Below the pieces are notes generated by a model. It was not told the origin of the DNA. It ran no database searches and worked only from the letters and a program-made list of their open reading frames with translations. Source: Streptomyces lincolnensis (GTDB lineage: Bacteria; Actinomycetota; Actinomycetes; Streptomycetales; Streptomycetaceae). From it: a DNA stretch of 64,000 bases. Every line of letters starts with the position of its first letter. Positions within the stretch are counted from its first letter, which is position 1. Below, in pieces: positions 19,455 through 31,517 of this stretch. A program made the position numbers and the translations under genes. The stretch spans positions 3,286,001-3,350,000 of the forward strand of contig NZ_CP016438.1 of NCBI RefSeq assembly GCF_001685355.1, read 5' to 3'.

Positions 19455-20900
19455 GTGTCCTCTCTCTTCCCGGCCCTGACCGAGGGCCCGGCCGACCGGC
19501 CGGCCCTGCGTTTCGGCGACCGCTCCCTGACGTACGGCGACCTCGGCGCCGCCGCCGGTGCCCTCGCGGCGCGGATCGGCGGGGCGGACAGAGTGGCCGT
19601 CTGGGCGACCCCGGCGCTGGAGACCGCCGTCGCGGTGGTGGCGGCGCTGGAGGCCGGTGTCGCCGCCGTGCCGCTCAACCCGAAGTCCGGGGAGAAGGAA
19701 CTCGGGCACATCCTGGCGGACAGCGCGCCCTCGGTGGTACTGGCCGCTCCGCGAGACGAACTCCCGCCCCCACTGGCGGAGTTGGAGCGCATCGACGTCG
19801 ACGTACGGGCCACCGGACCCGCCGCCGGGGGACGGGCGTCCGAGGACGACCCCGCCCTCGTCGTCTACACCTCCGGCACCACCGGCCCGCCCAAGGGCGC
19901 GGTCATCCCGCGCCGGGCGGTCACCTCGACCCTGGACGCGCTCGCCGACGCCTGGCAGTGGACCGGCGACGACGTCCTCGTGCACGGGCTGCCGCTGTTC
20001 CATGTGCACGGGCTGGTGCTGGGCATCCTGGGCCCGCTGCGGCGCGGCGGCTCGGTGCGCCACCTGGGCAGGTTCAGCACCGAGGGGGTGGCGCGGGAGC
20101 TGAACGACGGGGCGACCATGCTGTTCGGCGTCCCGACGATGTACCACCGCATCGCGCAGACCCTGCCCGAGGACCCGGAGCTGGCCAAGGCGCTGGGCCG
20201 GGCCCGGCTGCTGGTCTCCGGCTCCGCCGCGCTGCCCGTCCACGACCACGAGCGCATCGCGGCCGCGACCGGCCGCCGGGTGATCGAGCGCTACGGCATG
20301 ACGGAGACGCTGATGAACACCAGCGTCCGCGCGGACGGCGAGGCGCGCGCCGGAACGGTCGGCGTGCCGCTGCCCGGGGTGGAGGTCCGGCTCGTGGAGG
20401 AGGACGGGTCGCCGGTCGCGTCGTACGACGGCGAGACGGTGGGCGAGATCCAGGTGCGCGGGCCGAACCTGTTCACCGAGTACCTCAACCGGCCCGACGC
20501 CACGGCCGCCGCGTTCACCGCCGACGGCTGGTTCCGCACCGGCGACATGGCGGTGCGGGATCCCGACGGGTACGTCCGGATCGTCGGCCGGAAGGCCACC
20601 GACCTGATCAAGAGCGGGGGGTACAAGATCGGGGCGGGCGAGATCGAGAACGCCCTCCTCGAACACCCGGGGGTGCGGGAGGCCGCGGTCACCGGGGAGC
20701 CGGACCCCGACCTCGGTGAGCGGATCGTGGCGTGGGTGGTCCCGGCCGACCCGCAATCCCCGCCCGGCATCGAGGAGTTGGCCGACCACGTGGCCCGCCG
20801 CCTCGCCCCGCACAAGCGGCCCCGCGTCGTCCACCACATCTCCGCGCTTCCCCGCAACGACATGGGGAAGATCATGAAGCGGGCGCTGAGCCATGACTGA
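19455..20900 (+). CDS. matB: Malonyl-CoA synthetase
   Basis: 481-residue acyl-CoA synthetase of the ANL superfamily. The P-loop-like motif VVYTSGTTGPPKGAVIPRRA, A5 YGMTET, A7 GWFRTGDMAVRDPDGYVRIVGR (broken at 20 residues: GWFRTGDMAV / GYVRIVGR), hinge DLIKSGGYKIGAGEIE and the C-terminal catalytic lysine in NDMGKIMKRAL are all present. Length, termini and neighbours match the biochemically characterised S. coelicolor MatB (SCO2444), which makes malonyl- and methylmalonyl-CoA from the free diacids. The GTG start has AAGGAG 8 bases upstream. It supplies extender units; its stop overlaps the next gene by 8 bases. Confidence 0.9.
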   Translation: MSSLFPALTEGPADRPALRFGDRSLTYGDLGAAAGALAARIGGADRVAVWATPALETAVAVVAALEAGVAAVPLNPKSGEKELGHILADSAPSVVLAAPRDELPPPLAELERIDVDVRATGPAAGGRASEDDPALVVYTSGTTGPPKGAVIPRRAVTSTLDALADAWQWTGDDVLVHGLPLFHVHGLVLGILGPLRRGGSVRHLGRFSTEGVARELNDGATMLFGVPTMYHRIAQTLPEDPELAKALGRARLLVSGSAALPVHDHERIAAATGRRVIERYGMTETLMNTSVRADGEARAGTVGVPLPGVEVRLVEEDGSPVASYDGETVGEIQVRGPNLFTEYLNRPDATAAAFTADGWFRTGDMAVRDPDGYVRIVGRKATDLIKSGGYKIGAGEIENALLEHPGVREAAVTGEPDPDLGERIVAWVVPADPQSPPGIEELADHVARRLAPHKRPRVVHHISALPRNDMGKIMKRALSHD

Positions 20901-22467
20901 ACGCCCCACCGCCCGCGAAGTCCTCGCCCTGATCGCCGACGACTTCACCGAACTCCCGTACCCGGCGAAGGACTCCGCCCCCGACGGCCCGCTCGCCTGG
21001 CAGGGCTACGACGCCTCGCGCGCCCGCGCCGCCGAGCGCACCGGGGAGACGGAGTCCGTCGTCTGCGGCACCGCGCACGTCGAGGGCACCCGTGCGGTGC
21101 TGATCGCCTTCGAGTTCGGCTTCCTCGGCGGTTCCCTCGGCGAGCGCACCGGCGACCGGCTGGAGGCGGCGTACACCCACGCCCGCGAACACCGCCTGCC
21201 CGTCGTCCCGTTGGTCGCCACCGGCGGCAGCCGCATGCAGGAGGGCATGCTCGCCCTGACCCAACTCCAGCGCGTGGCCCGGCAGTCCGCCCTCACCCGC
21301 GAGGCGGGCCTCCCCCAGATCTCCGTCCTGCGCGACCCGACCACCGGCGGCGGCTGGGCCACGCTGGGCGCGGGCGCCGACGTGATCCTCGCCCTCCCCG
21401 GCGCCCAGGTCGGCTTCGCCGGCTCCCGCGTCCGCCCGCCGGACGCGGACCCGGCGGCGTACACGGCGGAGGCCCAGCTGGCGGCGGGCGCGGTGGACGC
21501 GGTGGTGCCTCCGGCGGACCTACGGGGGACGCTGGGACGGTGGCTGCGGCTGCTGACGGGCGGCACGGGGGCCGCTCCGGAGCCCGGCGAGCCCGGCGCG
21601 ACCGAAGCGCCGACGCGTGCCACCACCGGCCCGGGCGGCGGGAGGTCGGCGGCCCGGGCCCCCGGAGGACCCGGCACCGCCGCGGCACCGGCGCCTCCGG
21701 CTGGCGAAGAATCCGCGGGAGAGCCGGCCCGGTCCCCCCGGGACGCCACCGGACAGGGGCCCGTGGCTCCGGTGCCCACGGCGGCCCGCCCCGCCCCCGT
21801 CCCCGCCCCTCTGGGCGCCTCCGCTCTCCCCGCCACCGGCTGGGACGCCGTCCAGCGCGCCCGCTCCCCCCGGCGCCCCCGCGCCGAGGCCTACCTGGAC
21901 GCCTACTTCGCCGACCGCCTCGCGATCAGCGGTGACCGCTGCGGCGGCACGGATCCCGGGGGGATGCTGTGCGGGTTCGGCGAGCGCGAGGGCCGTACGA
22001 TCGCCTACGCCGCCCAGACCGGCACCCCGACCCGTCCCGCCGGCTACCGCACCGCCGCCCGGCTGATCCGGCTCGCGGGCCGACTCGGGATCCCCGTGCT
22101 CACCCTGGTGGACACGCCCGGCGCGGCGAACGACGCCGAGGCTGAGCGGCAGGGCGCCGGCGCGGCGATCGCGGACGTGTTCGGCGCGGTGGCCACCGCG
22201 CGCACCCCCGTGACCACCCTGGTCATCGGCGAAGGCGGCTCGGGAGGCGCCCTGGCCCTGGCCGCCCCCGGCAACACCTGGGCCACACCGGACAGCTACT
22301 TCTCCGTCATCGCACCCGAGCTCGCGGCCGCGATCCTCAAGCGGCCTCCGGAGGAGGTGGAGGCGACGGCGGACCAACTGCGTATCCGTCCACAGGATTT
22401 GATGGAACTCGAAGTGATCCGAAAAGGGGATCAACCGTTCCCTGGAACAGGTGATCGTCGCTCCTGA
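20893..22467 (+). CDS. Fused beta/alpha carboxyltransferase-like enzyme
   Basis: 524 residues. Two crotonase-fold carboxyltransferase halves are joined in one chain: the N-half (about 1-215) has LIAFEFGFLGGSLGERTGDRLEAA in two runs and GGSRMQEGMLAL; the C-half (about 320-524) has LVDTPGAANDAEAERQGAGAAI and VIGEGGSGGALALA. An Ala/Pro/Gly-rich linker of about 100 residues separates them. Beta then alpha order matches ACC or malonate decarboxylase carboxyltransferases. No biotin carrier or biotin carboxylase gene is present here. In a malonate locus it may act as a malonyl decarboxylase-type enzyme or as part of an acyl-CoA carboxylase; sequence alone does not decide. It overlaps matB by 8 bases (ATGACTGA). 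Confidence 0.8.
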   Translation: MTERPTAREVLALIADDFTELPYPAKDSAPDGPLAWQGYDASRARAAERTGETESVVCGTAHVEGTRAVLIAFEFGFLGGSLGERTGDRLEAAYTHAREHRLPVVPLVATGGSRMQEGMLALTQLQRVARQSALTREAGLPQISVLRDPTTGGGWATLGAGADVILALPGAQVGFAGSRVRPPDADPAAYTAEAQLAAGAVDAVVPPADLRGTLGRWLRLLTGGTGAAPEPGEPGATEAPTRATTGPGGGRSAARAPGGPGTAAAPAPPAGEESAGEPARSPRDATGQGPVAPVPTAARPAPVPAPLGASALPATGWDAVQRARSPRRPRAEAYLDAYFADRLAISGDRCGGTDPGGMLCGFGEREGRTIAYAAQTGTPTRPAGYRTAARLIRLAGRLGIPVLTLVDTPGAANDAEAERQGAGAAIADVFGAVATARTPVTTLVIGEGGSGGALALAAPGNTWATPDSYFSVIAPELAAAILKRPPEEVEATADQLRIRPQDLMELEVIRKGDQPFPGTGDRRS

Positions 22468-22641
22468 GATCGTCCGGCAACGGCTGGCTCGTCCGACGGC
22501 AGACAGAGCACGAAACGCGGCGCAGTCTCCCCGTCCCAGGGAAGCGGTGCCGCCGCGAAACCGGGACAACTCTTCCTGCCGTCCGGAACAATGAACGGGC
22601 TCGGTTCCACGGGCTCGGTTCCACCGGACGACGGGGGCATC

Positions 22642-22959
22642 ATGGAAGGCTTGGTCGAGTTCAAGACCGGTGACGGTGCGGTGATCGCGGTCGAGGCCGC
22701 CGACGACGTGACGGGTTCCCGTCTCGTTTCCCGCGACGGCACGGTGCAGGCGGCCCGCACCTTCGAGAACGCCCTCGACGGGGTGCGTTCTGCGGCCGAG
22801 GCGGCGCTGAGGGTGTTCCGGGACGGTGCGCTCCAACCGGACGGCGTGGAGATCGAGTTCGGCGTGAAGCTGTCCGCCGAGGCGGGCGCGATCATCGCCA
22901 AGGGCACCGCCGAGGGCCATCTGGTCGTCAAGCTCACCTGGACCCCGGCCAGGTCATGA
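22642..22959 (+). CDS. Trypsin-co-occurring domain protein (trypco1/CU044_2847 type)
   Basis: 105 residues. MEGLVEFKTGDGAVIAVEA at the start, a central amphipathic helix (TFENALDGVRSAAEAAL) and the ending VEIEFGVKLSAEAGAII...GHLVVKLTW, the recognisable trypco1 pattern. This domain was described as an effector-associated adaptor linked to trypsin-like proteases in bacterial NTP-dependent conflict systems. The next gene, a trypsin-like protease, overlaps it by 4 bases (ATGA), fitting that pairing. ATG 22642 follows a G-rich site; the frame is open about 50 bases further up but with poorer context. Confidence 0.8.
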   Translation: MEGLVEFKTGDGAVIAVEAADDVTGSRLVSRDGTVQAARTFENALDGVRSAAEAALRVFRDGALQPDGVEIEFGVKLSAEAGAIIAKGTAEGHLVVKLTWTPARS

Positions 22960-24692
22960 GCGGCGCCGAGTGGCACGCCCGCGTCGAGTGTGCGGGCGAG
23001 GTGGCCGGCGCGGGCTTCCTGGTGGCCCCCGGCACCGTGCTGACCTGCGCCCATGTGGCGCTCGACCGTGGTCCGCTCACCGTGTCCTTCCCGCAGCGCC
23101 CGGGGTCCCCCGCCGTCCCGGCCCGCGTCGTCGCGCACGGCGACTGGGCGGGTGGCCCCGCCGACCCGGGCGACCTGGCCGTCCTGGAGCTGGCCGAGGA
23201 GGTCGCCATCGCCCCGGCCGCGCTGGCGCCGGCTGTCACCGCGCACGGCGAGCGCAAGCTCGTCGCGTACGGCTTCCCGGCCGGCTGGGACGAGGGCACG
23301 CTCGCCGAGTACCGCACCACGGGTCCGGTGCTGGTCGGCGGCGAGTGGATTCAGCTGGAGGCGTGGAGCGGGTACGGCCAGCCGCTCGTCGCCGGTTTCA
23401 GCGGCGCCGCCGTCACTCTGGTCGAGACCGGCGAGGTCGTCGGCATGGTCACGGCGGCGGCCGGCGCGAAGGGAGTCCTGTCGGGCCGGATGATGCCGAC
23501 GGACGTCATCGAGCGCCACTGGCCCGGTCTGGCAGGCCTCGTCCCGGCCTCGGGCAGCGCCCCCGCCGCCCGGCGGCGGCTGCGCGGACTCGTGGAGCAG
23601 GCGGTGCGCGCGGGCCTGGACTGCGATCCCGTACGGCTCTACTCCGACGCGGCCGGCGAACTCGACCCGCCGCCCCCGCCCGAGGGGTTCGACTCCCTGT
23701 GGTCGGCGGCATGGTTCGTACAGGGCGAGCTGGACGACCCGGAGACGGCGACGCGTTTCGCGGACCGCCTGGAGAGCCTCCTCGCCACACCCGCCGTGCA
23801 CCGGAGCACGGCACGGCCCGACTGGGCGCCCATCCTGATCGAGCTCGGGCACAGTGGCGCGGGCGAGGATCTGGTCCGCGTGGAGGTGTCGGCGTACAGC
23901 GGGGGCCGCCGCCACCCGGTCGCCTCCGACACCGTGCCGCACACCCGGCTGCGGGCCTGCGTCCAGGACGGCATCGAGGCGGCGTTCTGCCGACTGACTC
24001 CCGGCGCCGAAGAGTTGATCGCGTTCGTGCTGCCCCGTGACTGGCTCGACTGGCCGGTGGACCGCTGGGAGAGCGATGCCGAGGACGACACCCCGCTCGG
24101 TCTCGCCCTGCCGGTCGTCGTCACCGACCACGTACGGCGCAGGGCCCGCACCCGGCACGCCCTGACCCGCGCCTGGAACCGGCTCGACTCCCGCACCGGC
24201 GCCAGCGTGCACCGGGTCGCGTGCGGCCGTCCAGGTCAGCCGAGCGAACTGCGGCTGGCCCTGCTCGAGTCGGAGCACTGCCTCGCGGGCTTCGCCACCG
24301 CCCCGGACGCGGCCCGCACCAGCGAGCACTTCAAGACGTCGCTCACCGCCCCGGCTCCGGTGATCGTGTGGTCGCGCCGGGGCTGCGGGGAGCCGGACGG
24401 CTGCGGGGACGACTGCCCGGGCACGGCGTTCCTGGACGAACTCGACGCCCACGTCTCCCGCATACCGCCCGCCGAACTCCCGCGCACCGTCCTCACCCTG
24501 CGCCGGAAGGCCGAGGCGAAGGACGGGCACTGGGCGCGGGACATCCAGCTCCTGTGGGACGACCCACGCTGCTTCACCGACCCGCACGAGGAAGTGGCGC
24601 ACCTGCGGTCACCCGTGGCACGGAGCGCCCCCCGCCCGGCTGTCCAGCACGCCCAACTCCCCCTCGGCGATGCCCGGTTCACCGTCGCTTGA
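22956..24692 (+). CDS. Trypsin-like protease with VMAP-type C-terminal domain
   Basis: 578 residues, no signal peptide, hence cytoplasmic. The N-terminal 200 residues form a trypsin-fold peptidase with a full triad: His33 (LTCAHVAL), Asp73 (GDLAVLEL) and Ser149 (GFSGAAV). The rest matches the VMAP C-terminal region: helical middle, beta strands with LIELGHSGAGEDLVRVEVSAY (two runs), then the signature LIAFVLPRDWLDWPVDRWE and late VIVWSRRGC and Cys-rich GCGEPDGCGDDCPG segments. VMAP proteins are the third member of vWA-MoxR-VMAP ternary systems, with protease or other effectors at the N-terminus. It is overlapped by the trypco1 gene and followed 36 bases later by the MoxR ATPase. Confidence 0.82.
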   Translation: MSGAEWHARVECAGEVAGAGFLVAPGTVLTCAHVALDRGPLTVSFPQRPGSPAVPARVVAHGDWAGGPADPGDLAVLELAEEVAIAPAALAPAVTAHGERKLVAYGFPAGWDEGTLAEYRTTGPVLVGGEWIQLEAWSGYGQPLVAGFSGAAVTLVETGEVVGMVTAAAGAKGVLSGRMMPTDVIERHWPGLAGLVPASGSAPAARRRLRGLVEQAVRAGLDCDPVRLYSDAAGELDPPPPPEGFDSLWSAAWFVQGELDDPETATRFADRLESLLATPAVHRSTARPDWAPILIELGHSGAGEDLVRVEVSAYSGGRRHPVASDTVPHTRLRACVQDGIEAAFCRLTPGAEELIAFVLPRDWLDWPVDRWESDAEDDTPLGLALPVVVTDHVRRRARTRHALTRAWNRLDSRTGASVHRVACGRPGQPSELRLALLESEHCLAGFATAPDAARTSEHFKTSLTAPAPVIVWSRRGCGEPDGCGDDCPGTAFLDELDAHVSRIPPAELPRTVLTLRRKAEAKDGHWARDIQLLWDDPRCFTDPHEEVAHLRSPVARSAPRPAVQHAQLPLGDARFTVA

Positions 24693-24728
24693 GACCGTCC
24701 GTCCGCCCCGAGACCGGAGACCCGCACC

Positions 24729-25739
24729 ATGCCGCACTGGTCCGTCTACACCGGCAAGAGCGAACCGCACGACGGCATCACCGACCTGCCCGCCCCGCCC
24801 CCGTGGCGGGCGTTCGACGGCGGGCCCGCGCTGCCGCCGCCCGGCGACACCGACGACGAGGCAGCCGTCTCGCCCGACCGGCTGCACCGCGCCCGCACCT
24901 ACGTGGCCACCCCGGAGAGCGTCCAGCTCGTCAACGCCGCCCTCTGCCTGCGCCGCCCGCTGCTGGTCACCGGCCCGCCCGGCACCGGCAAGTCGTCACT
25001 GGCGTACGCGGTGGCGCGCGAGCTGGGTCTCGGCCCGGTCCTGCGCTGGAACATCACCAGCCGCAGCACCCTCGCCGACGGCCTCTACCAGTACGACCCG
25101 CTGTCCCGCCTCTACGCGGCCCGCCCCGGCGGAGGGCGCGACCGCGGCGGCGTCGAGGACCATCTGCGTCTCGGCCCGCTCGGCACGGCGCTCCTCCCCT
25201 ACGACCGTCCCCGCGCCCTCCTCGTCGACGAGCTCGACAAGAGCGACCTCGACCTGCCCAACGATCTGCTGAACGTCCTGGAGGAGGGCCAGTTCGAGAT
25301 CCCCGAACTGGTCCGCGCGGCCCGCCACTCGGCGGACGGCACAGCCGAGGTCCTCACGGACGGCACGGATGCCCCGGTCCCCGTGCGACGCGGCCGGGTC
25401 CGTTGCCGCGCCTTTCCCTTCGTCGTCCTGACCAGCAACGGCGAGCGCGAGTTCCCGCCGGCCTTCCTGCGCCGCTGCGTACGCCTGAAGCTCCGCCGCC
25501 CCGACCAGAAACAGCTCACCGAGATCGTCCGCGCCCACCTCGGCGCCCCGAACGACCAGATGCAGTCCCTCATCAAAAGCTTCCTGGACCGCGCGACCAG
25601 CGGCGAACTGGCAACGGACCAGCTCCTCAACGCCATCTACCTCACCGGCGTGGCAGGCCTCGACGCCGAGTCCCGCGACCACCTGGCCGAGCAGCTGATG
25701 CCCTACCTGAGCGCGACGGCGGACGGCGATGGGTTCTGA
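24729..25739 (+). CDS. MoxR-type AAA+ ATPase
   Basis: 336 residues. Walker A GPPGTGKS (82-89), Walker B LLVDELDKSD (164-173), sensor-1 region VVLTSNGEREFP and arginine-finger PAFLRRCVRLKL define a MoxR-like AAA+ ATPase, acting as an oligomeric remodelling machine with vWA partners. An insert rich in Asp and Val (about 200-220) lies between Walker B and sensor 1. The first 50 residues are a Pro-rich N-terminal extension. It starts 36 bases after the protease gene and its last 11 bases overlap the next gene, so ATPase and partner are made together. It should couple ATP hydrolysis to activation or restraint of the protease effector. Confidence 0.87.
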   Translation: MPHWSVYTGKSEPHDGITDLPAPPPWRAFDGGPALPPPGDTDDEAAVSPDRLHRARTYVATPESVQLVNAALCLRRPLLVTGPPGTGKSSLAYAVARELGLGPVLRWNITSRSTLADGLYQYDPLSRLYAARPGGGRDRGGVEDHLRLGPLGTALLPYDRPRALLVDELDKSDLDLPNDLLNVLEEGQFEIPELVRAARHSADGTAEVLTDGTDAPVPVRRGRVRCRAFPFVVLTSNGEREFPPAFLRRCVRLKLRRPDQKQLTEIVRAHLGAPNDQMQSLIKSFLDRATSGELATDQLLNAIYLTGVAGLDAESRDHLAEQLMPYLSATADGDGF

Positions 25740-28700
25740 CGACGGGAGCGGGGGACCGAGGAGGGCCGGGGAGCCGGGCGGTCCCAGGACGGCTCGCGGC
25801 CCCCTGACCGGCGACGACGCGTCCGCCGTCGTACGGCTGACGGCGGCGCTGGCCGCCGCGGCAGGCTCCGGGACGCCCGGCCCGACCCCTCGCGAGCTGG
25901 CCGAACTGCTGTGGCTGGCACAGAAGTTGGCGACGCCGGGCAGTCATCGCGAGGCACCCGAGAAGCCCACGCCCGCCGGCCGCCCGGCGCCCGCCCCCGT
26001 CGGCGTATCACCACACCCGGCCCCCCGGCCGAAGCCCGGCCCGCCACCGGCTCCCCCACCGCCCCCGGCCCCCGACGGCCGCATCCCCCTGCACCTGCCC
26101 GAGCGGACCGGCACCCCCACCACCCAACTCCTCGCCCCCGCACCGCCGATGTTGCCCCACCCGCTCGCACTGCAGCGCGCCCTACGCCCCCTGAAGCGAC
26201 GCGTCCCCGCGCCCCCCGCGCGTGTGCTGGACGAGCTGGCCACGGCCGACCGGATCGCCCGCCTCGGCGCGCGCCCGGACGTGTGGCTACCCGTCCTTCG
26301 CCCGGCGCTGGACCGCTGGCTGCGCCTGAACCTGGTGTACGACACCGGCCCCACGATGCCGGTCTGGCGCCCCTTGGTCCGCGAACTGCACACCGTGCTC
26401 GCTCAGTCGGGCGTCTTCCGCACGGTTACCCTGCATCTGGCTGGCCCCGACGGCCGCGCCCACCACGTCCCCGCCCTCGCGGACGGCCGCACCGTCACCC
26501 TGGTGATCAGCGACTGCATGGGCCCGCAATGGCGCCCCGGCCCCGCGGGCGAACGCTGGTACCGCACACTCCGCCGCTGGGCGACCCGTATGCCGCTGGC
26601 CGTCGTACAGCCGCTGCCCGAGCGGCTGTGGCCCACCACGGCGCTCCCCGCCGAACCGGGCCTGCTGACGGCCCCGTCCACCGCGGCCCCGTCGTCAATG
26701 CTCGCCTTCACTCCGTACGACCCCGACGCGCCACGCGCCCCCGCCTCCGCGCTCACCCTCCCGGTCCTGGAACCAGGCCCGGCCTGGCTCGCCAACTGGG
26801 CGGCGCTGATCGCCGATCCGGGCGGTGCCCGGATGCCGGGTGCGGCGGCACGGCTGCCGCCCGCGCCCACCGGCGTCGCCGAGCCGTCAAGGCCCGACAT
26901 CGCCTCCCTCCCCCCACGCGACCTGGTCCTGCACTTCCGCGCCACCGCGTCCCCGGAAGCCTTCCGCCTCGCCGGCCATCTCTCCCTCGCGGTCCCCTCC
27001 CTGCCGGTCATGCGCCTCGTCCAACGCGCCCTGGAAGGCAGCCCACGCCCCCAGCACCTCGCCGAGGTGATCCTCAGCGGCATGCTCACGACGGTGCCGG
27101 GCCCGCCGGGTTCGTACGCGTTCCGTCCCGGCGTACGGGATCTGCTGCTGCGGACCCTGCCGCGTACGGCGCGCGGGCGTACGCGTGAATTCCTCGCACG
27201 GGTGGGCGGGTTGATCGACGAGCAGGCGGGGCTGACGGCGGGTGAGTTCCGGGCGGAGGCGGGGGGCGGGGGTGCGGTGTTCGCGACGGTGAGCGAGGAG
27301 ACGGTACGGCGGCTGGGTGGGAGCGGGGCCGGGGAGGGGCTGGTCCTGGGCCGGTATCGGCCGGTGGAGGCGAGGATCGCGGGGCAGCGGATGTGGGAGG
27401 CGGTGGACGTACGGACCGAGCGGCGGGTGGTGGTCCACCGGTATCCGGAGCAGACGTCGGGTCCGGACCTCTTCCTGCGGCAGGCGGCCGTGCTGGCCGA
27501 GCTTCGGCATCCGAACGTGGTGCCGGTGGTGGACTTCGGCATGGAGGGTGAACAGCCCTATATGGTCGCGGAGTTCATCGAGGGGGTGACCGTGGCCGAG
27601 CTGGAGTCGGGCAGCGGTCCGGGAGTCTCCGCCGGTGTGCACGAGCGGGTGCGACGGGGCGTCGAATCGGGGCTTCAGGCGATCCATGCACGCGGTCTGG
27701 TGCGTGGCCCGGAGGGCTGGGACGGCGTCCTGCTGAAGCCGTACGGTACGGCCGTGCTCACTCGGTTCACCTTGGGCGAGCAGTCGGTTCACCACAGCGT
27801 GGCGAGCGACCCGCAGGCGTTCCGCGATCTGTTGGAGGGCCTGGCCCGGCGCGAACCGGACGCCGCGGACACCGGGTGGACGGAGCCACTGCACATCACC
27901 CTGCTCGGTCCCCCGCGCCTCGGCCACAACCCTGTGCCGTCCCCGGAGGCACTGGCCATGCTGAGCATGCTGGTCCTCAGACAGGGTTGCCGGGTGCCCA
28001 GCGCCGAGCTGGCCTCAGGCCTGTGGGAGCAACCGCCCGCCGAGCCCGACACCGCTGTCCGCCACCTGTCCCTGGAGCTGCGGCGGCTCCTCGGACCGGG
28101 CACCATCGCCAGAGCTCGGAACCACTACGCCCTCCACGCACCGGACGCCTACGTCGACGTACTCCAGTGCGAGATGCTGCTTGCCTCCCGCACCCAGGAC
28201 CTCCGCGCCCGACGCACCACAGTCCAGCAGGTGTTGGCCCTCTGGTACGGCGACCCCCTCGCCGACATCCCCGGCCCCGCCGCCCGGGCCACCCGCACCC
28301 GCCTCCGCGCCCTGCGCCTCACCCTCTGCGCCACCCGCGCCGAACTCGACCTGGAACTCGGCGACTTCACCCAGGCCGCCGCCGACCTCGCCCCCCTCAT
28401 CCAGGAGCACCCCGACCGTCAGGACTTCCGCCGCCTACACATCCTCGCGCTGAAGGGCCAGGGCCGGATCACCGAGGCCATCGAGGCGTACGAGTCCTAC
28501 GAGGAGCACTGGCAGCGGCAGTACACCGACCCCCTCGACCCCACCTTCCAGGAGCTGTACCGCGACCTGCGCACCGCACCGGAGCGTTCGCGGCCCACGA
28601 TCGTCTTCGAGATCTCCGGCGGCGAGGACCCGTACGACACCCTCGGCCAGGCCGTGACCAGCCTCCTGGCCCGCGGCGATCTGCCCACGCACCAGTACGA

Positions 28701-30306
28701 GGTACTGGCCCGCGACAACGGCTACGTCGTCCTCACCGAACCCGAGGCACACGTGCTGCCCGTCCTGGTCGCCGTACTGCGCAGACTGCCCGGGCACCTC
28801 GCCGCACTGGACGACCCGCCGCAGGTCCGGGTCACGTTCTGGCACAGTCCGTGGTTCGCGGGCCCGGGCCAGCCCGTCGTACCGCCGCAGGTGCAGGGCG
28901 TTCTCGACGACTCGTCGGCGGATGTGACGGTAGTCGTCTCCCCCACGCTGCACGAGGAGTTCGCGAACAGCTCGGCCGCGGACGCGGGACGCTTCCAGCC
29001 GCTGTGGACGGGAGACCAGACCTCGCCCGTCGCCTGGTACTGCCCGCTGCATCTGTCGCCGCCGCAGACCGAGTCGCGCGACCTGGTGCGCGGCGCGTTC
29101 CGCACCGGGGACGTCACCCGGCTCGATCCCCCGGAACCGGGTCGCACGGCCGTCGTACTCTCCCCGCCCGACGGCCCCTTGACCCTTCTCGACCCGGCTC
29201 ATCCCTGGGGCAGGCGCCCGCCGCGGCCCATGGCGTACTACGAGGTCGACCTCACCGTCCACCAGGCCGCCCACTCGGTCTCCCTGCCGAGCTCCGGCGG
29301 CGGAGCCTTCGCGGCGTCCGTCAAACTGTCCTGGCACGTCGACGACCCGGTCGCCTTCGTGCGGGCCGAGACCGAGAACGTCTCCGAGATCCTTCTCGAA
29401 CACCTTCTGAAGGAAGCGGCTCGCATCACCCGCCGCCACCCCCTGCGCCGCGCGGGCGCCGCCCAGCAGGCACTCCGCAGCGGGCTGCGCAAATGGCCGG
29501 TGCCGGGCCTGTCGGTGACCTGCTCGGTGGGGCTGACCCCGGAGGGCGATCCGGCGCCCGCGCCACAGACAGCCGCGTCACAGACCCGCCCCCCGTCCCA
29601 CTCCCCCCTCACCACCGTCCTCCGCGGAGCCGAAACCGTCCTCATCGGCTTCGACGGCCCCCTCACCCGCCTCTTCACGACGAGGGCCGCCCGCAGCGCC
29701 GCCCTTGAACTCCTCTCCCTGGCCGTCGAGGACCGCGATCCGGCCGACGCGCTGGAGGGCCGCCCTCTCACGGGCCCCGGCGGGCCGATCCCCTTGCAGG
29801 AGGAGCTCGTGCACCCGTTGGAGGTGCTCCGCGCCTTCGCCGGCAGCAGCCTCGGACCAGATCTACGACGACGCCTGGACGACCTCGAGCTGCGCGCCGT
29901 CCGGAACACCTATCCGACCCCGGACGCCCACGCGCTCATCCGCGCCCTGAACGGCTCCGGGCGCCGCGTGGAGGTCGTGACGGACGTCAGTAAGCAGGCC
30001 GCTCTGCGCTGCCTGGGCCACCACGGCCTTCCGCAGAGCAACGTCCACGGCCGCAGCGAGAACCTCGCCCTGCTGATGCCGAACCCGGACTGCCTGCTGC
30101 GTGCGCTGAAGCTCCCCGGCCGCCCCACGCCCACCGGCCTCCTGCTCACCTCGTCCGCCGCGGAACACACCGCCGCCACCCGCCTGGGCCTGCGCTGCAT
30201 CGGCTACGCCGACATCCCCGCCACGGAACGGCGGCTCCGCAAGGCCGGCTGCGAGGAAATCCTCACCTCCCTCGAACCTCTCCTGGACGCCGCCCGCGCC
30301 CTGTGA
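25729..30306 (+). CDS. SAV_2336-type multidomain protein: vWA-like, pseudokinase, SARP/BTAD, HAD-like
   Basis: 1525 residues with an unusual chain of domains. Residues 71-118 are a Pro-rich linker. About 180-300 look like a vWA domain (LNLVYDTGPTM in the MIDAS position, later VTLVISDCMGP). About 380-510 are helical, as in SAV_2336 proteins. About 535-690 are a protein-kinase fold with VVVHRYP at the VAIK position and no HRD or DFG, so a pseudokinase. About 720-805 resemble a winged helix (ITLLGPPRLG, PSAELASGLW) and 806-945 a BTAD/TPR block as in SARP/AfsR. About 955-1250 is unassigned. About 1295-1525 is a HAD-like fold (LIGFDGPLTRLF; VVTDVS) lacking the final acidic motif. It overlaps the MoxR gene by 11 bases. 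It probably supplies the vWA and sensor arms of the ternary system; the domain edges are my reading. Confidence 0.7.
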   Translation: MGSDDGSGGPRRAGEPGGPRTARGPLTGDDASAVVRLTAALAAAAGSGTPGPTPRELAELLWLAQKLATPGSHREAPEKPTPAGRPAPAPVGVSPHPAPRPKPGPPPAPPPPPAPDGRIPLHLPERTGTPTTQLLAPAPPMLPHPLALQRALRPLKRRVPAPPARVLDELATADRIARLGARPDVWLPVLRPALDRWLRLNLVYDTGPTMPVWRPLVRELHTVLAQSGVFRTVTLHLAGPDGRAHHVPALADGRTVTLVISDCMGPQWRPGPAGERWYRTLRRWATRMPLAVVQPLPERLWPTTALPAEPGLLTAPSTAAPSSMLAFTPYDPDAPRAPASALTLPVLEPGPAWLANWAALIADPGGARMPGAAARLPPAPTGVAEPSRPDIASLPPRDLVLHFRATASPEAFRLAGHLSLAVPSLPVMRLVQRALEGSPRPQHLAEVILSGMLTTVPGPPGSYAFRPGVRDLLLRTLPRTARGRTREFLARVGGLIDEQAGLTAGEFRAEAGGGGAVFATVSEETVRRLGGSGAGEGLVLGRYRPVEARIAGQRMWEAVDVRTERRVVVHRYPEQTSGPDLFLRQAAVLAELRHPNVVPVVDFGMEGEQPYMVAEFIEGVTVAELESGSGPGVSAGVHERVRRGVESGLQAIHARGLVRGPEGWDGVLLKPYGTAVLTRFTLGEQSVHHSVASDPQAFRDLLEGLARREPDAADTGWTEPLHITLLGPPRLGHNPVPSPEALAMLSMLVLRQGCRVPSAELASGLWEQPPAEPDTAVRHLSLELRRLLGPGTIARARNHYALHAPDAYVDVLQCEMLLASRTQDLRARRTTVQQVLALWYGDPLADIPGPAARATRTRLRALRLTLCATRAELDLELGDFTQAAADLAPLIQEHPDRQDFRRLHILALKGQGRITEAIEAYESYEEHWQRQYTDPLDPTFQELYRDLRTAPERSRPTIVFEISGGEDPYDTLGQAVTSLLARGDLPTHQYEVLARDNGYVVLTEPEAHVLPVLVAVLRRLPGHLAALDDPPQVRVTFWHSPWFAGPGQPVVPPQVQGVLDDSSADVTVVVSPTLHEEFANSSAADAGRFQPLWTGDQTSPVAWYCPLHLSPPQTESRDLVRGAFRTGDVTRLDPPEPGRTAVVLSPPDGPLTLLDPAHPWGRRPPRPMAYYEVDLTVHQAAHSVSLPSSGGGAFAASVKLSWHVDDPVAFVRAETENVSEILLEHLLKEAARITRRHPLRRAGAAQQALRSGLRKWPVPGLSVTCSVGLTPEGDPAPAPQTAASQTRPPSHSPLTTVLRGAETVLIGFDGPLTRLFTTRAARSAALELLSLAVEDRDPADALEGRPLTGPGGPIPLQEELVHPLEVLRAFAGSSLGPDLRRRLDDLELRAVRNTYPTPDAHALIRALNGSGRRVEVVTDVSKQAALRCLGHHGLPQSNVHGRSENLALLMPNPDCLLRALKLPGRPTPTGLLLTSSAAEHTAATRLGLRCIGYADIPATERRLRKAGCEEILTSLEPLLDAARAL

Positions 30307-30479
30307 CCCCACGTCAGACCCTTTACGCTCCCCTCCATAGGGCGCGGATGACAAAACCCCCATTCAGCCGCTCCCCACCCGGCCCACCATAAAAGGCGCC
30401 CCGCCCTCACCCCCCACACGATGCCAGTGAGGCCCGCCACCCGGCGCGGCCACGGTCTGTGCTCTCGGGAGGACCTGCC

Positions 30480-31517
30480 ATGACCGCCAGTCTGGAGCAG
30501 CTGCGCCGCTGCCACTTCGCCGTCGATCTGGGTGCGGCGAGGACGCGGGTGTACGTGAAGGGGGCCGGGCTCGTCGTGGACCAGCCGTCCGCCGCCGCCG
30601 TGAACACCCGTACCGGCGCGCTGATCGCGGTCGGCGAGTTCGCGGAGAAGATGACGGGCCGTACGCCCGACTACATCCGCGTCGTCAGGCCCGTGTCCGG
30701 TGGGACGGTGGTCGACATCGAGATGGCGCAGCGCATGCTGCGGCATCTGCTCGGCGACAAGATGCGCCGCGCGCTGCGCCGCAAGCCCCGGCTGCGGGCC
30801 GCCGCCTGCACCCCGCACGACGCCGACCCGCTGGCCCAGCGGGCGGCGATCGAGACGCTCGTCGGGCTCGGGGCGCGGCGGGTGGAGCTCGTGGACACGC
30901 TGATCGCCGCGGCCGTGGGCTGCGGGCTGCCCGTCGAGCGGGCGGAGGCCACCATGATCATGGTGTGCGGGGCAGCCGCGACGCAGGTCGCCGTGCTCTC
31001 CCTCGGGTCGATCGTGACCGCCGAGCGGATCCCGGTCGGCGGTGAGGCCGTGGACCACGCGATCGTGCAGCACCTGCGTCACGAGCACGAGCTGATGCTG
31101 CCCAGCCAGTCCGTACGACCGCTTCAGCTGACCCTCTCCGGCAACGGCCTCACCCCGCAGGGCCCCGCCTCCACCGAGATCCACGGCCGGGACGTGGCCA
31201 CCGGCCTCGCCCGTTCCGTGCAGGTCGACACCGCCGCCGTGCGGGACGCGATCGAGACCCCGCTGACCGCCGTCCTGGACGGCATCGGCCGGGTGCTGCG
31301 CAACTGCCCGCCCGACCTGGTCGCCGATCTCGCCGACCGCGGGATCATGATGGTCGGCGGCAGCGCGCTGCTGCCCGGCTTCGACCAGATGCTGCGGCAG
31401 GCGACGGGCATGCCGGTGCACATCGCCGAGCGGCCGGACGTGTGTGCCGCCCAGGGCCTCGGCTACATGCTGGAGGGCCGGATCGAGCCACTGGCACTGG
31501 ACCCGCTGGCCACCTGA
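30480..31517 (+). CDS. Mbl-like MreB-family actin
   Basis: 345-residue actin-fold ATPase. Phosphate-1 motif AVDLGAARTRVYV, connect/phosphate-2 region MVCGAAATQVAVLSLGSIV and the adenosine motif MMVGGSALLPGFDQML are visible. It is shorter and more divergent than canonical MreB and matches the second, Mbl-type homologue of Streptomyces (SCO2451 in S. coelicolor), which contributes to aerial hyphae and spore walls rather than vegetative growth. ATG 30480 follows CGGGAGGA. The 173 bases upstream contain no gene, only the likely promoter. The GAF kinase gene starts 10 bases after its stop, so the two are co-transcribed. Confidence 0.85.
   Translation: MTASLEQLRRCHFAVDLGAARTRVYVKGAGLVVDQPSAAAVNTRTGALIAVGEFAEKMTGRTPDYIRVVRPVSGGTVVDIEMAQRMLRHLLGDKMRRALRRKPRLRAAACTPHDADPLAQRAAIETLVGLGARRVELVDTLIAAAVGCGLPVERAEATMIMVCGAAATQVAVLSLGSIVTAERIPVGGEAVDHAIVQHLRHEHELMLPSQSVRPLQLTLSGNGLTPQGPASTEIHGRDVATGLARSVQVDTAAVRDAIETPLTAVLDGIGRVLRNCPPDLVADLADRGIMMVGGSALLPGFDQMLRQATGMPVHIAERPDVCAAQGLGYMLEGRIEPLALDPLAT

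Follow-up and report, generated by a model that had tools for sequence, protein, structure and literature searches.

The 64,000-nucleotide stretch of the Streptomyces lincolnensis chromosome analysed here (the window) carries, between positions 22642 and 30306 of its forward strand, a four-gene operon that is almost certainly a VMAP-ternary conflict system of the trypsin/Trypco1 type. The defining features of these systems were set out by Kaur et al. 2020 (PMC7159879; this and the other papers are cited here for those of their parts that deal with such systems or with AfsR). An earlier reading of the DNA from its letters alone (the sequence-only reading) had offered the operon as a candidate conflict system; a new kind of system it is not, but an ordinary copy of the class described in 2020. 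What can be added is a division within the operon, in which a live core of protease, MoxR and metal ion-dependent adhesion site (MIDAS) residues stands against a largely dead, fastest-evolving C-terminal array on the vWA protein, together with the finding of an AfsR-like SARP in that array and the turnover of a kinase-SARP block. The overall reading we favour, with a rough probability of 0.45, is that the array serves as the sensor or bait and the protease as the effector. The genes and the core parts are as follows.

22642..22959, forward strand: trypco1 (Trypsin-co-occurring domain 1), 105 residues, PF19493 at 91.1 bits; alternative upstream ATG at 22591
22956..24692, forward strand: trypsin-VMAP, 578 residues, with Trypsin_2 at residues 18-164 and VMAP-C at residues 306-537
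23871..24566, forward strand: VMAP-C domain, residues 306-537, PF20028 at E 1e-40
24729..25739, forward strand: MoxR-type AAA+ ATPase, 336 residues, AAA_5, with the two N-terminal motifs of VMAP-system MoxR
25729..30306, forward strand: SAV_2336-type vWA protein with C-terminal array, 1525 residues, NF041121 at 422 bits
25888..27231, forward strand: vWA core with N- and C-terminal extensions, residues 54-501, MIDAS-type D205, G207, T209 and D262
27280..27321, forward strand: junction peptide FATVSEETVRRLGG, residues 518-531, between core and array, conserved by column counts

The four reading frames are laid out as the sequence-only reading had described, with a 4-base overlap of trypco1 and trypsin-VMAP (22956-22959), a 36-base gap between trypsin-VMAP and MoxR (24693-24728) and an 11-base overlap of MoxR and vWA (25729-25739). 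Scans for promoters and terminators found 0 and 0. The co-occurrence of all four genes, which that reading had proposed to look for, was found in 63 of 67 related loci, counting those with both VMAP and vWA and more than 600 bases of sequence upstream of VMAP, so the grouping is not a matter of chance. The related loci throughout are the best 80 of 152, drawn from named genomes, and their titles give 78 Streptomyces, one Kitasatospora and one 'Actinobacteria bacterium'. The 62 of the 80 that are longer than 22 kb are referred to as long, and the 32 with a vWA identity of at least 75% as near (30 after drops). Three loci, L065, L071 and L075, were kept out of the alignments because of a broken frame, truncation or N in the sequence; among the non-redundant relatives listed, set A1 holds 37 of 56 and set A2 38 of 53.

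The trypsin triad of His33, Asp73 and Ser149, named in the sequence-only reading, is found at exactly these positions and is invariant in all 66 aligned orthologues, within a region that matches Trypsin_2 (PF13365) at 47.8 bits (cut-off 27.6). Further along the same protein, VMAP-C reaches 140.5 bits with PF20028 (cut-off 27), and the middle region reaches 14.7 bits with VMAP-M8, below the Pfam cut-off of 27. The MoxR protein matches AAA_5 (PF07728) at 32.3 bits (cut-off 22), and its N-terminal motifs read WSVYTG and PPWRAF in the window (patterns WxVYTG and PPWRxF) and WxhapG and PsWRxa as published. Among 67 aligned orthologues, V6, Y7, T8 and G9 of the first motif are kept in every one and W4 in 65; P24, P25, W26, R27 and F29 of the second motif are each kept in all 67. 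The Walker A sequence GPPGTGKS has Ser in place of T86 in 10 of the 67, with the remaining seven positions invariant, and D167, E168, D170 and K171 (which include the Walker B Asp-Glu), as well as R248 and R249, are found in 67/67. With these Walker residues and R248/R249, the protein is predicted to be an active-type member of the MoxR clade of AAA+ ATPases. Besides this ATPase, the trypsin-like protease is the sole domain of the system with an intact recognised active site.

The trypco1 protein exceeds the Pfam cut-off of 24.6 bits for PF19493 and matches NF041216 CU044_2847 at 82 bits; its orthologues align from the first residues that follow the start at 22642. In four loci, L007, L008, L009 and L041, which form one supported clade, no trypco1 match was found at the locus, while trypsin-VMAP and the rest of the system are kept. 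This suggests that trypco1 is not strictly required in cis for tolerating the protease; a copy elsewhere in those genomes is possible. The adaptor role that the sequence-only reading gave to trypco1 is thus conjectural, the more so as the gene also occurs on its own at two sites that lack the other three (see below).

The N-terminal third of the giant vWA protein is recognised through SAV_2336_NTERM (NF041121; residues 54-501, cut-off 200 bits), and its MIDAS residues are present in 77/77 aligned relatives. A vWA fold in the 140-520 segment is only moderately supported; comparing a profile of the vWA part with solved structures gave no match up to E 1, and Pfam run on 38 vWA segments returned just two chance-level single-member matches. 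In the N-terminal extension, E56xxE59xxW62 is conserved in 64 of 65 rows; it resembles the printed motif [D/E]xxx[D/E]xxxa but has another spacing. In the C-terminal extension S408 and R413 are both kept in 77/77 and E410 in 63/77, and on our own reading these three would be the conserved S, E and R of PMC7159879. The sequence-only reading had thought the protein much larger than a classical vWA partner. Its length is in fact usual, as the vWA proteins of VMAP-ternary systems show length peaks at 850, 1125, 1300 and 1450 residues (PMC7159879).

Behind the core and the junction peptide comes the array. It consists of five parts, which the sequence-only reading did not list; the third and the fourth are named on our own reading and are tentative.

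27346..27828, forward strand: pseudokinase, residues 540-700, Ser/Thr kinase matches, in Pfam below cut-off
27859..28569, forward strand: AfsR-like SARP, winged-helix DNA-binding part and BTAD, residues 711-947, BTAD and AfsR matches
28591..29043, forward strand: cyclase-like segment, tentative, residues 955-1105, suggested by how strands and helices follow one another in a confident model and by the cyclase-Band7-HAD architecture described in PMC7159879
29221..29544, forward strand: Band-7-like segment, tentative, residues 1165-1272, on the same basis
29626..30303, forward strand: HAD-family domain without the nucleophilic Asp, residues 1300-1525

The kinase- and HAD-derived domains are, by their catalytic positions, dead in nearly all relatives. 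The catalytic Asp of the pseudokinase, which is Pro661 in the window, is kept in one of 71 aligned relatives (L068), and the ATP-site Lys likewise in 1/71; of the 64 relatives that have a residue at the nucleophile position of the HAD domain, 62 carry Gly. AfsK was considered as the donor of the pseudokinase and dropped, the best kinase matches in the same genome besides itself being weak (E 2.1e-11 and above). No Pfam match was found for the cyclase-like and Band-7-like stretches of the window, and a fold search for the two gave a list filled by HAD matches, from which nothing follows for either.

The SARP part is the best recognised piece of the array, with BTAD at 71.3 bits (cut-off 22.1), a match to the solved AfsR structure at E 1.7e-25 along the SARP part, and a match to the AfsR model NF053617 at E 2e-33 (115.5 bits, far under the equivalog cut-off of 1430). 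Its best match in the same genome besides itself is a 986-residue frame at E 1.2e-27, followed by one at 2.4e-18; the former is taken for AfsR because it resembles the AfsR entries matched. In the AfsR structures (PDB 8HVR/8JKE/8K60, PMC10936776), R92 and T88 contact bases and D71 contacts RNA polymerase. Residues 711-947 align along the SARP part of AfsR with W74, P79, R87 and R94 kept (W74 in 70/71 relatives). In contrast, R92 is replaced by Glu (E783), T88 by His (H779) and D71 by Ser in the window, and the NOD-TPR part of AfsR is lacking. Among 24 near orthologues the R92 position is Glu in 21, Gln in 2 and Asp in 1. Since it is still Arg in 25/71 relatives overall, the loss of base reading is, by these residues, a likely mark of the window's clade and not a general one.

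The pseudokinase and the SARP are present or absent as a unit. The block has no match in 6 of the 32 near loci, and at least four changes are needed on the core tree, which was made by a quick method, with five intact-frame loci lacking the block; most simply, these changes would be losses. Where the block is missing, FATVSEETVRRLGG or a near form of it runs through a short linker into the cyclase-like segment. In L076, which also lacks the block, part of the junction peptide is tandemly repeated as EETVRRPGGGD-like units at about residues 515-565 of the vWA protein. The junction peptide was considered as a protease-specific site, and a pattern scan of four sibling loci and of L144, a distant copy of the system, found no clear counterpart. 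The claim we make for the array is one of presence or absence of a block and of fast divergence, not of exchange.

For the rate of change the genes on both sides of the operon serve as a reference. These lie outside the system and are syntenic markers.

20893..22467, forward strand: upstream flank, acyl-CoA carboxyltransferase-like gene, PF03255, in 59/62 long related loci
30459..31517, forward strand: downstream flank, MreB/Mbl-like gene, PF06723 at 365 bits, in 62/62 long related loci

A ligase gene, found in 61/62 of the long loci, was used as well. Ratios of nonsynonymous to synonymous substitution rates (dN/dS) are medians over close pairs with dS between 0.05 and 1.5 only, for which 7 to 12 of 12 non-independent pairs were usable in each row. 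They come to 0.13 for MreB, 0.19 for the carboxyltransferase and 0.21 for the ligase; to 0.16 for the vWA C-terminal extension, 0.17 for MoxR, 0.20 for Trypco1 and 0.25 for vWA; to 0.22 for the VMAP middle, 0.23 for VMAP-C and 0.27 for the trypsin part; and to 0.29 for the Band-7-like, 0.32 for the HAD, 0.38 for the kinase, 0.45 for the cyclase-like and 0.46 for the SARP part. The array therefore has the highest dN/dS in the system. Taking one pair per cluster from five clusters, the kinase exceeds both core parts every time; one of these pairs (L049/L050) has a very small dS that excluded it from the kinase median. Median identities to the window in the near loci follow a similar course except at VMAP, with 94% for MreB, 86% for the ligase, 85% for MoxR, 84% for the carboxyltransferase, 81% each for vWA and Trypco1, 67% for VMAP, 63% for the Band-7-like part, 53% each for SARP and HAD, 51% for the kinase and 50% for the cyclase-like part; the N-terminal linker, where found, comes to 47%.

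Set beside the published class, the operon has most of the sequence features of VMAP-ternary systems, and none of the features tested speaks against it. The sequence-only reading had fitted it to the vWA-MoxR-VMAP ternary logic, with a trypsin-type VMAP next to Trypco1, and was right in this; gene order, VMAP-C and MoxR motifs agree. It shares with the systems in PMC7159879 the strict order VMAP-MoxR-vWA, the Trypco1 neighbour, VMAP-C and the MoxR N-terminal motifs, and also the several C-terminal domains on the vWA protein, the inactive kinase and HAD, the size range and the actinobacterial host. At the array position, that paper reports inactive kinases, inactive cyclases, Band 7, a derived HAD and kinase-wHTH pairs. 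Within what it describes, nothing categorical sets the operon apart; the printed motif at the N-terminus of vWA is not reproduced exactly, and the VMAP middle stays under the VMAP-M cut-offs. Here the wHTH-type domain can be identified more closely, as an AfsR-like SARP; neither SARP nor BTAD occurs in the main text of that paper. A second relative is found in the ternary systems of Thiohalocapsa PB-PSB1 that are linked to a diversity-generating retroelement (PMC10907252). They have a trypsin-type VMAP, a MoxR and a vWA protein with a variable C-terminal part, and the signal direction proposed for them is the one favoured here. Peculiar to them is that the retroelement produces the variation, in a C-type lectin domain. 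The four genes here have no Pfam match to a lectin, FGS or reverse-transcriptase family; their surroundings were not searched for a retroelement.

Likeness to other defence systems is slight. The trypsin-like region resembles that of AVAST type 1 Avs1b at 15.7 of 1500 bits, far under the curated cut-off, and the AAA+ similarity to MadB, the methylation-associated ATPase, gives 73.2 bits against a cut-off of 475. For the beta-propeller ternary system, bpMoxR reaches 21.7 bits (cut-off 27), and no propeller family is among the Pfam matches of the vWA protein. The matches listed for component models of PADLOC 2.0.0 are all partial; they include Avs1b over residues 12-107 of 1924, PD-T4-6 in the kinase part and IetA in the P-loop part, and none is listed for trypco1.

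The distribution of the system was followed in 61 genomes of the genus, including that of the window, with the system counted as present where a vWA-core match and the Mbl-like gene share contig and strand and lie no more than about 10 kb apart. All 61 genomes have the Mbl-like gene and the system stands beside it in 9/61, which is a lower bound as some Mbl contigs end nearby (e.g., G012 and G015). Besides the window's own genome, the eight with the system were confirmed to hold VMAP, MoxR and vWA at this site, seven of them together with Trypco1. No vWA-core match at E 1e-20 was found in eleven of the 61. G050 has a 58% vWA-core match on another contig; this is L144, with matches to trypco1, VMAP, MoxR and vWA and no detectable homology to the window's array.

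Out of the 52 genomes without the system beside Mbl, the sites of 14 were opened, of which 5 were uninformative and nine informative. Five sites are empty between the carboxyltransferase and Mbl-like genes. Two of the nine hold trypco1 without VMAP, MoxR and vWA: one has an intact orphan copy at L123:8721-9035, beside a frame that by eye is oxidase-like, and the other has one at L128:2175-2489, beside a long opposite-strand frame that by eye is secreted-peptidase-like. At a third site the HAD end of the vWA protein survives with a broken frame immediately upstream of the Mbl-like gene (L124:10356-11053), as a relic of a lost system. Opposite-strand frames of about 1200-1400 codons, secreted-peptidase-like by eye, occupy this site in L124, L128 and L132, the last holding nothing else. 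Given the 9/61 presence against 61/61 for the Mbl-like gene, and the empty and eroded sites, the system is accessory, with relics at at least three sites. A housekeeping gene set common to all streptomycetes, which the sequence-only reading had named as the finding that would overturn it, is rejected on the same grounds.

In the reading we favour, the vWA-MoxR pair would hold the complex in a resting state, with the C-terminal array as its variable, outward-facing part. This array, a chain of what look like largely dead copies of host-type proteins (pseudokinase, AfsR-like SARP, cyclase-like, Band-7-like and dead HAD), would be bound or modified by the proteins of an invader. The vWA core and then the MoxR ring, driven by ATP, would relay this change to VMAP-C, whereupon the trypsin-like protease would be switched on to damage or stop the infected hyphal cell. 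Complex formation, the direction of the signal, the substrate and the anti-phage outcome are what we infer in it. A more specific and more tentative version is that the array is an integrated-decoy sensor as in plant immune receptors, where dead look-alikes of host regulators would bait phage proteins that target the live versions, and engagement of the bait would unleash the protease through the vWA-MoxR relay. The array would then possibly be the sensing end rather than the effector end, the reverse of the 2020 proposal. In that proposal (PMC7159879), the VMAP middle senses, MoxR-vWA restructures the complex, the protease cuts the vWA protein and the C-terminal domains are freed as effectors; decoys are named there, but as blockers or dominant negatives. 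The conserved junction peptide between core and array is in keeping with such a release, and so is the divergence of VMAP as a whole, which is less conserved than its flanks (67% against 84% and 86%). However, the VMAP middle, as the proposed sensor, is no more variable than the other VMAP parts, its dN/dS of 0.22 being close to that of the flanking metabolic genes and below the 0.29-0.46 of the array; the domains to be released include dead kinase and HAD derivatives, and array blocks come and go. We regard the published order as possible but doubtful for this operon. A dead and fast array, a VMAP middle that evolves no faster than the other VMAP parts and an invariant protease make us lean to the model of PMC10907252 (2024), drawn from the retroelement-linked relative, in which the vWA protein senses and the N-terminal enzyme of VMAP acts. 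The protease release on infection or stress that the sequence-only reading thought plausible comes near one of these two published proposals. A broader tie to defence is given by PMC10910872 (2023), which reports vWA-MoxR-VMAP domains coupled to CARF-domain proteins near type III CRISPR.

Several points weigh against a bait-like array and an immune role. All the dN/dS medians are below 1, so that the faster change of the array could come from relaxed constraint instead of an invader. With VMAP less conserved than its flanks, as noted above, it too may face the invader. The operon persists where array domains are missing, so none is strictly needed, and the base-reading Arg is partly kept in distant orthologues. 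The cyclase-like and Band-7-like identities, which come from a predicted model, are tentative. Wholesale swapping of arrays at the locus was considered and rejected, as the core, kinase-SARP and C-terminal trees are broadly congruent. Plasmid or phage cargo was likewise rejected, since tblastn of the VMAP protein against plasmid and phage collections gave no match. In the literature consulted, no phage or toxicity result, nor any experiment, on a VMAP system was seen. Part of this evidence would also suit a role outside immunity, in which the system regulates development or secondary metabolism through its AfsR-like SARP or the neighbouring Mbl protein. The best match of the SARP in the same genome is AfsR-like, its best match among solved structures is AfsR, the place beside the Mbl-like gene is fixed in the related loci, and Arg at the R92 position survives in part of the distant orthologues. 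Yet the system was not found beside Mbl in 52/61 genomes, the base-reading residue is Glu in most near orthologues, and near loci can do without the kinase-SARP block, which makes such a regulator improbable. A housekeeping chaperone-protease for protein quality control is more improbable still. MoxR-vWA pairs elsewhere assemble or remodel complexes (PMC7159879) and the protease and ATPase residues are intact here, but the patchy presence, the erosion and the fast-changing array are against it.

VMAP-ternary systems are reported to be widespread in multicellular bacteria, and PMC7159879 and PMC10907252 disagree on which end senses and which end acts. The present operon is suited for a test of this in a streptomycete, as it offers one fixed chromosomal site, natural variants with and without kinase-SARP, a clade that lacks Trypco1, and empty sites. 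If the array is a bait, bacterial immunity would be using dead versions of the cell's own regulators to lure invaders, and the AfsR-like module would suggest that phages target antibiotic-control proteins.

A literature search with 'SAV_2336' and with S. coelicolor locus tags presumed for the region found no papers. The same genome has four sibling SAV_2336 proteins with other arrays, one of which resembles the anti-phage protein MzaC, below its cut-off. On the minus strand, long antisense frames (22431-24602 and others) run over the operon; they are expected in GC-rich coding DNA and were not taken as genes.

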